DNA from: a virus | Length of the DNA: 31,638 nucleotides | IMG/VR virus record: IMGVR_UViG_3300032311_000060 | Span: 1-31,638 of that record | Reading direction: 5' to 3' (one strand) | In this document: in pieces, positions 5,479-8,400 of the stretch | How positions within the stretch are numbered: position 1 is the first letter of the stretch | Layout: each line of letters starts with the position of its first letter | Notes under the pieces: generated by a model | Told to the model about the DNA's origin: nothing | Database searches by the model: none | The model's input: the letters and a program-made list of their open reading frames with translations, nothing else | Position numbers and translations under genes: made by a program

Positions 5479-8400
5479 TATCTTTTTCCTTTCATGTGCG
5501 CGCTAGACAGATATTCTAACGGGCCTTTGCTTTCTGGCGGTAATTCGCTTGGGGGGTTTGAATGTTTGTGCGCGCGGATATTTTTAATAAACTGATCCAA
5601 CACACTGGCGCCAGACTCACTGGATCCATTCCCCAGTGCAGACACAATGTCTGCGGGTATCACGAATTCGTTGTTGGCCACCATGGCGGGGATCTGGTCA
5701 GACGTTCCGTCACCACGACCTTGGATGTAGGTTGTTCCTGCGCCGCCCTCAGAGTAAAACTCTGGTTGACCCATAGGGTGCTCTGGCACCATGCCGCCTT
5801 CGGCAAAACTAAAGAAATTGATCAGGTCCAACGCGGGTGCCTCTTTTTGTTTATCTTCCTCTTCCTTCTTGATTTTCTCTTCTTCAATCTCAGAAGTCAA
5901 GATGTTTTCTTTCTTGTCCTGTGAGGGTATTGGCACGCCGGCCAAAGAGAAAAGCAGGGGGTTAAGAAGCGGGGTTTCTTCGTATACTTTTTTGTACGAG
6001 GGTTTGTATTGTGGTAAAGACGACGACGGCGCACCAGTTGTGGGGGCGGAGGCAAGGTATGTTGAGCGGCCGCTCCTACCTGTACCTGTGCCAGTTCCTG
6101 TGCCAGTTCCTGTGCCAGTTCCTGTGCCTGTGCCTGTGCCTGTGCCTGTGCCTGTGCCTGTGCCTGTGCCTGTGCCTGTGCCTGTGCCTGTGCCAGTTCC
6201 TGTGCCTGTACCTGTGCCTGTACCTGTGCCTGTACCTGTGCCTGTGCCTGTGCCTGTGCCTGTTCCTGTGCCTGTTCCTGTACCGGTTCCTGTACCGGTT
6301 CCTGTACCGGTTCCTGTGCCTGTACCTGTACCTGTACCGGTACCTGTACCTGTACCGGTTCCTGTGCCTGTACCTGTGCCTGTGCCTGTACCTGTACCTG
6401 TACCTGTACCTGTACCGGTTCCTGTACCTGTACCTGTGCCGGTTCCTGTACCTGTGCCTGTACCTGTGCCTGTACCGGTTCCTGTGCCTGTACCGGTTCC
6501 CTTATCTTTTACAACAACATTTTGGTTGTTTGTAACAACACCTTGGTCGCTTGTAATTGTGCCCTTGTCGCTGGCTATTGTGCCTTTTTGTCCACCACCA
6601 CCACCAGTAAGAGATGTGTCCGATGGTTTACTAGAAGAGGCAAGTGCAATGGACGCAAGGTTTGCATCTGTTTGTGCCTGCTCTGATGCGGCCTGATTCT
6701 CGCTTGTATTGGACGACGACGATGATGAAGACACACCTTTAGTGGTGGGTTGATCTAATCGCTTGCCTGTAATAACAATCTCGTCAATTTGATCGTCTAT
6801 TGTGGGGTCCGCCGCCTTGGTTTTTAATACTTCAAACTCTTCGTCGGAAAGGTTGATATTAGAATTTTTAAGCGTTTGTTGTGTGACGCCATCGTCCTTT
6901 AGCAGTTGAACCGTTGCCCTCAACGTTGCTGGGTCGGGCTTCTCTGCTGTCATACCAGCCGTGGGGTTAAACTGAGAAAGCAACCACGCTATTCCCGCAT
7001 GGGCCGCCGCAACACCACCCGCAATCAGAGGAGCAAAAGCAACTTGGTATGTTGGGTCGCCCGCGTACTTTGCCATGTTTGATTCTAGTGTATCAACACT
7101 GGCCAGTTGCTTTGACGCGTCTGTGCCAAAAGTTTTGTCGCCGGATGTTAAGTCACCAATTTTTAAATCAGAACCGAGCGCCGAGCTTGATTCATCAATT
7201 CCAGTTTTAGCCACTGTCGATGTCTTGGCCGCGTTTCCAGTCACCTCATTAGACGCGGTCAAAGCCTCCTCTGGTGTACCGCCGGAGGTAATAACGTCTT
7301 TGAATTTGTTGAACGCAGTGTTGCCTTTTGAAGCGGCGTTCATTGCACTGTTAAAAGCCTGTGATGCACTCATAAGCGCAGAGGGGTCGCCGGTCTGATT
7401 AAAACGATCAAACGCCTGTGTCATGCGTACAGCAGACGCGGCAAGCTTAGCGTCACTGCTACCAGTCAACGAGGCCGCGGCGTCTGCTAGCCCTGCAAAG
7501 TCATTGTTGGCCAACGCGTTGGCCGCGTTGGCTATGGTTAAACCAGTGCGGACCTCTGCAGGCAAACTAGCGCCAATATAACCAGCCGCAGAGTTTACGA
7601 GCCCCGCCACGTTGCCTGTTTGTATTGCGTTAATACCACCAACAATGTTTTTAGCGTCGTTAATAGGGATGTCCATGAAATCTGTAAAACCAGCGGAACC
7701 AGCCGCACCCAGCGCACCAAGGGCGGCGCCAGTGTAGTTGCCTTGGCCTGCAGAGATAGCGGCATTCAGACCCTGTGCAAATGGTGCCACACCGGGAATA
7801 AAAGACCCTAAAGACAAAAGCATTTGCAGATCACTTAGGTCTGTTGCGCTAGAAGCCCCCGTGGTGTACACGATGGGTTGTCCCTGCGCGTCAAAACCAA
7901 CGCGGTAGGCTGTGTTGCCCGCGCCTGTGTACGTACCAGAAAATGCATTACCTGTAGCACGCTCAGCGTAGTCGTTAACAAGGGGCTGACCTGTTGCCTT
8001 GTTAATTAACACGGTGCTAGTTGTTTCAGGGTTCCAACTATCACCCTGCTCTGTCACTGTGTAATACCCCGGGTTGGTAATTGTTTCCTGACCAATTTGA
8101 CTTAAATCAGTGATACCTGATGCGGCAAGGTTTTCAGCAATTGCTTTTGCGTTAGCGTCTGCTGAACCAAATCCCTCGCCAGTCCATCTGTCCATGGTTC
8201 CCTGACCAACGATCTGGTTATATAAACCCGTTACGGCCGCTGGGTCAAGTGTGTAATCTTTGCCCGCGTACTGTTTGGTGTACGTGCTAGGTGTTGTATT
8301 TGTAGAAAGCGTATCAAGGCCGGATGTATTTGCCGTTGTATCAGCGCCTGTTGTAACAGCATCAAGGCCAGATGTGTTATTTAATTGTGACCAGTTGTAT

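Follow-up and report, generated by a model that had tools for sequence, protein, structure and literature searches.

A (Gly-Thr)70 Array Occupies a Conserved Spacer Slot Refilled with Different Repeats in a Putative Internal-Virion Protein of Related Phages

The viral record IMGVR_UViG_3300032311_000060 from IMG/VR (31,638 nucleotides, analysed over its whole length and referred to as the window) encodes a protein with 70 uninterrupted Gly-Thr dipeptides. Comparison with related phages demonstrated that the slot in which this array lies is conserved, that the type of repeat within it changes, that its length changes in frame, and that its composition is constrained. We consider it probable (approximately 0.65) that this array is what currently fills a conserved, length-tolerant and disordered tether slot in an internal-virion protein of ejection or tape-measure-like type. 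Judging from the sequences compared, the position and the character of the slot are the conserved feature and not its Gly-Thr identity.

The array is encoded on the minus strand at positions 6078–6500 and comprises 141 codons, 70 perfect Gly-Thr dipeptides and a final Gly, corresponding to residues 669–809 of the 1008-amino-acid ORF 5478–8504 (−). The seventy uninterrupted dipeptides reported in a preliminary description of this DNA were confirmed, with the start at 6078 instead of 6081 and the end at 6500. Six types of 6-bp units are present (GGCACA 31, GGTACA 24, GGAACC 8, GGAACT 4, GGAACA 2 and GGTACC 1), which differ exclusively at third codon positions without a single amino acid change, and twelve consecutive GGCACA units are identical. 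TRF scored the array at 483–497; its occurrence is far beyond chance expectation. Since the longest exact repeat within it is 68 bp, short reads could in principle resolve the array; the unit count, read from a metagenome contig, is not certain.

The variable positions of the array are at the same time the wobble positions of a (Val-Pro)n frame on the opposite strand, which is open over 301 amino acids (5791–6696, +), and for this reason the array alone leaves unsettled which strand is constrained. A (Val-Pro)n protein with a merely passive Gly-Thr reading is nevertheless extremely improbable, as the predicted virion genes are located on the minus strand and purifying selection acts on the minus-strand flanks (dN/dS against the relative L030 of 0.195 on the N-terminal side and 0.08 for the whole C-terminal flank). 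In addition, among the GT/VP hexamer arrays listed, the longest frame reads GT in 70 of 80 loci and VP in three, and the antisense arrays of relatives read other dipeptides. The minus strand was therefore taken as the coding strand based on gene order, flank homology and flank dN/dS, and the antisense frame was rejected as a gene.

Homologues were gathered via the C-terminal flank and via the N-terminal flank, and at least 508 relatives carrying the C-terminal motif were obtained from IMG/VR. A search for the host by genome match, covering 84,980 genomes of bacteria and archaea, yielded no relative of the C-terminal domain. Between conserved flanks, the same site holds arrays of (GT)n, (PA)n, (PT)n, PTVT, NPPVV, EVKP, ANVN or GVS and in some homologues impure low-complexity runs instead of arrays. 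Fillings in relatives include, for example, (PA)59–84 with (PT)16, (PT)87, PTVT, PVTPV, NPPVV, EVKP and VNT-rich runs. In L012, which is 92% identical in the C-terminal domain, the slot consists of PELVVQDKK and PPVVN repeats and no GT is present. Part of the slot in L012 and L061 is occupied by tandem units of approximately 15 residues (DVPELVxQDKKTTSG) rather than by dipeptides. When the slot was defined as the region 130–420 residues ahead of the C-terminal motif, with bounds set after seeing the data, the lowest-complexity stretch fell into it in 65 of 72 complete distinct ORFs compared to 15 expected by length; as these ORFs are mutually related, a binomial p-value for the enrichment is not a true probability. 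Among ORFs without a perfect array the corresponding fraction was 39 out of 44. A tree built from the C-terminal part, with 87 rows but few columns, requires 29 changes of array type; GT requires eight changes, at least five of which are forced by well-supported branches. The extended spacer in a virion-cassette protein, one of the functions considered in the preliminary description, gains support from this slot common to relatives with conserved flanks. Because relatives fill the same slot with different repeats, a floppy tether seems to be needed rather than a particular sequence.

The protein carrying the array is modular. Its N-terminal 668 residues (6501–8504, −) consist, in this order, of a conserved N-terminal motif, a beta-rich part, a Gly/Ala-rich helical part and a variable linker; identity in this region (alignment A2) amounts to 86–87% within the GT clade and to ~46–51% with L012 and L015. 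No match to PHROG families, Pfam families or PDB entries, and hence none to a known ejection protein, was obtained for these 668 residues. The conserved C-terminal domain (5481–5999, −) shows a mean column identity of 84% in an alignment of 14 sequences (A1) and contains a putative tape-measure-type motif of approximately 45 residues (5628–5762, −), to which the tape-measure profile match of the protein is confined. The motif matched PHROG tape-measure families with E values of 7e-6 and 3e-5 and, weakly, the tape measure gp16 (PDB 8zdo, E 0.003). An AlphaFold model based on eight sequences predicted no secondary structure across the array, with very low confidence throughout the protein; its mean pLDDT of 35.4 does not separate disorder from the effect of a shallow alignment. 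In the N-terminal third of the relatives L021, L027 and L039–L041 a module GASWNS...GGATTADTL...DALHTNAAGEQVYN was observed, which is absent from the window protein and resembles SGNH hydrolases by eye; a Pfam search with L021 and L027 yielded no match for it.

Going leftwards, the minus strand of the window encodes a capsid protein (PF25209, Mu gpT-like), collagen-like fibre proteins, an endolysin, an SU10-type adaptor, a 708-amino-acid virion structural protein (8801–10927, phrog_3287) and the array gene, followed in the same direction by proteins of 286 (4618–5478) and 578 amino acids (2879–4615) and an open-ended 960-amino-acid protein (3–2882) bearing an SLT transglycosylase domain (PF01464, E 2e-15) and matching the internal virion protein family phrog_342 (E 1.5e-12). 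The 708-amino-acid protein is P22 gp10-like by the annotation of its homologue in MW202545 as 'phage stabilization protein'. Length is nearly constant for the 286-amino-acid protein among close relatives, and the 578-amino-acid protein has its own Pro/Ala-rich stretch (3702–3769) and PQAGG repeats (4120–4203); P/A-rich stretches are also present in its counterparts in L061, L064, L070, L077 and L081. Two giant fibre-like proteins are encoded adjacently (25273–29268 and 20994–25271, −), the former with collagen-like repeats; both share a similar C-terminal region with repeats of the GG-N-x-A-G type, which suggests a duplication. The array gene shares its cassette with the transglycosylase-bearing internal virion protein, and this order is kept in relatives and in the cultured phage GB2A. 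Gene order together with the C-terminal tape-measure motif argues for an internal-virion protein of ejection type, and its presence in the virion and its ejection would follow from its place in the cassette. The SU10-type adaptor and the gp10-like protein are indicative of a short tail, and PHROGs detected no tail-tube or chaperone genes among the 19 proteins of the window, which represents a partial genome.

Arrays of the nearest relatives differ from that of the window in third-position pattern and in length. Complete arrays in the GT clade comprise 47 units (L081/L030) and 70 units (window), L058 holds at least 42, and the others reach contig ends. The contigs L070 and L080 are nearly identical, with no mismatches in 8687 bp downstream and 31 in 5322 bp upstream, yet carry PA59 and PA84, respectively. 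Their arrays match except for one clean in-frame block of 25 units located mid-array; this difference could in part be due to assembly collapse. Continuing growth and shrinkage of the arrays is thus supported, in line with the ongoing expansion by slippage that had been proposed. As the unit is 6 bp, slippage by whole units never shifts the frame, and this arithmetic rules out the suggested phase variation.

All array lengths were read from metagenome contigs, in which collapse is possible, and 15 out of 25 contigs with the C-terminal domain terminate within the slot. Such ends are expected if the true arrays exceed short-read resolution, and array lengths are therefore uncertain. One contig (IMGVR_UViG_3300020044_007713, at the end of L033) has a gap of ~10 bases between two loci inside its GT array, with the reading frame lost beside it, probably as an assembly scar. 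That the array was made by the assembler, or that its length is meaningless, would agree with this scaffold gap and with the breaking of assemblies at repeats, but is highly improbable considering that other contigs carry GT arrays with different third-position patterns at the same site and that the longest internal exact repeat is only 68 bp.

Selection on the composition of the array is supported by the substitution pattern. The window array contains 53 minority third positions and no nonsynonymous codon. When neutral evolution by mutation and by duplication and deletion of blocks was simulated, only one of 576 runs with matching synonymous diversity was free of nonsynonymous changes, in agreement with the constraint at protein level proposed earlier. 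Pooled over 29 array segments (GT, PA or PT) from the family, an omega proxy was 0.08, a value biased downwards as the segments were chosen to be repeat-rich. Exclusively synonymous change, as originally described, holds for the window clade and for most PA and PT arrays of near relatives but not for the whole family. Interrupted arrays in relatives, which had been named in advance as an observation that would refute the proposal, are found in distant relatives (L118, L146, L249 and L280, and also L210). As the arrays of distant relatives hold interruptions, what is constrained is the character of the array and not strict GT.

The main rival remains a tolerated, functionless microsatellite, in which slippage inserts repeats into a linker that is neutral and their persistence reflects no more than a failure of selection to purge them. 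Free variation of array type and length, the interruptions in distant relatives and the short and impure slot of GB2A are all compatible with this explanation, which we nevertheless regard as rather doubtful, since neutrality does not account for low-complexity filling kept at the site in 65 of 72 relatives or for the strong depletion of nonsynonymous variation. A length ruler, in which the repeat number sets a dimension of the virion, was suggested in the preliminary description and would fit the tape-measure type of the C-terminal motif. However, array length varies across the GT clade (47 versus 70 units) and among near-identical phages (PA 59 versus 84), and a short tail is indicated for the window, which renders a ruler very unlikely. 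The same is true for a threonine segment that is modified, for example O-glycosylated, or binds a ligand: alternating Thr could carry a modification and GT arrays recur across many phage proteins, but PA, EVKP and ANVN arrays without hydroxyl residues fill the slot in relatives, and a hydroxyl residue is thus not required.

Nor is a pure GT linker as special as initially assumed, given the PA, PT, PTVT, NPPVV and EVKP repeats of relatives at this site and the frequency of pure GT arrays in phage contigs. When both strands were scanned for exact runs of 12 GT hexamers, at least 120 IMG/VR stretches with pure GT arrays of this length or longer were detected, the longest among the matches listed having 98 units. 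Several of these loci (L117, L118, L131, L134 and L146) are distant members of the array-protein family, and many others look unrelated to it. The array of 141 amino acids is long, yet not unique.

A published survey of 102 phage proteomes recorded low-complexity regions in 51 of them, the longest comprising 115 amino acids under strict criteria (PMC6821194). As a short-unit tandem array lying in frame between conserved domains, the Gly-Thr array is a low-complexity (SSR-derived) linker, and the dominance of small residues (G, A and P, for example) is shared with the prokaryotic and phage regions surveyed; unlike those, it extends over 141 amino acids (up to ~200 in relatives) at a single conserved site whose composition changes. 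Flexible, partly unfolding ejection proteins have been described for podoviruses of the T7 and P22 type (PMC8954989). The array protein resembles them in being large and modular with Gly/Ala-rich helical parts and in the location of its gene between those for the gp10-like and the transglycosylase proteins, but differs from them in its N-terminal part, for which PHROGs, Pfam and PDB yielded no match. Under the terms searched, that review yielded no description of long pure dipeptide arrays, and the literature searched contained no matching account of ejection or tape-measure proteins with dipeptide arrays. Tape measure proteins of long-tailed phages can vary in the number of an 11-amino-acid repeat unit, with gene length following tail length (PMC3271669). 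Variation of repeat number in a virion gene is common to both, and the C-terminal motif of the array protein matches tape-measure families. Here, however, the repeat units are dipeptides whose type changes, and there is no evident long tail. The closest cultured phages compared are the Caulobacter phages RW, RLK, KcrB and GB2A of the proposed genus Riverwalkvirus (PMC11053796), with a major capsid protein 65% identical to that of the window and the same cassette order. GB2A gp065 occupies the position of the array gene and contains a P/T/V/G-rich stretch; in contrast to the window protein it has 580 amino acids and no long pure array. As the slot is short and impure in this cultured relative, there is no strict need for a long pure array.

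According to the tether reading that we favour, the slot would join the N-terminal part to the conserved C-terminal tape-measure-type motif and would demand a tether that is long, prone to disorder, composed of small residues and for the most part uncharged. Tethers may arise via hexamer slippage or unequal recombination without ever shifting the frame; purifying selection would purge residues that break the low-complexity character while third positions stay free, and the array of one lineage may later be supplanted by another repeat type. Disordered within the virion, the tether would allow the protein to be packed and then to traverse the narrow portal and tail in an unfolded state, so that during DNA delivery the N-terminal part could reach out from an anchored C-terminus, 141 residues corresponding to ~49 nm when fully stretched. 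Portal threading and envelope reach are proposals modelled on the ejection proteins of T7 and P22 (PMC8954989).

A further version of the exchangeable tether appears unlikely, in which a rapidly evolving slot common to a very large family of phage proteins has its length selected within populations, for example by host envelope thickness, and lies next to a TonB-box-like motif through which the delivered protein could engage the energised envelope machinery of the host. Ahead of the spacer the window protein contains the sequence DEIVITGKR (6759–6785, −), a TonB-box-like motif recognized post hoc and not established. A pre-set TonB-box pattern matched the window protein only (one of 20 family proteins) and, not being conserved in the family, lent the hypothesis no support, whereas a post hoc pattern matched seven of 21 family proteins compared to 0.55 expected by shuffling. 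The sequence E(I/L/M)(V/T)(V/I)T(G/A/P), mostly followed by xR, precedes the repeat slot in several lineages, the loci being, in addition to 6759–6785 (−), L081, L031, L070, L077, L117, L118, L131, L085:10060–11802 (GB2A gp065) and L086:8075–9994.

The array protein represents a case in which the position and the physical character of a protein segment are conserved but not its sequence, the site being repeatedly refilled by different simple repeats across a widespread family of phage proteins. This also accounts for the breaking of metagenome contigs of these phages at one place. The relatives provide a natural series for testing which tether lengths and compositions delivery proteins need.
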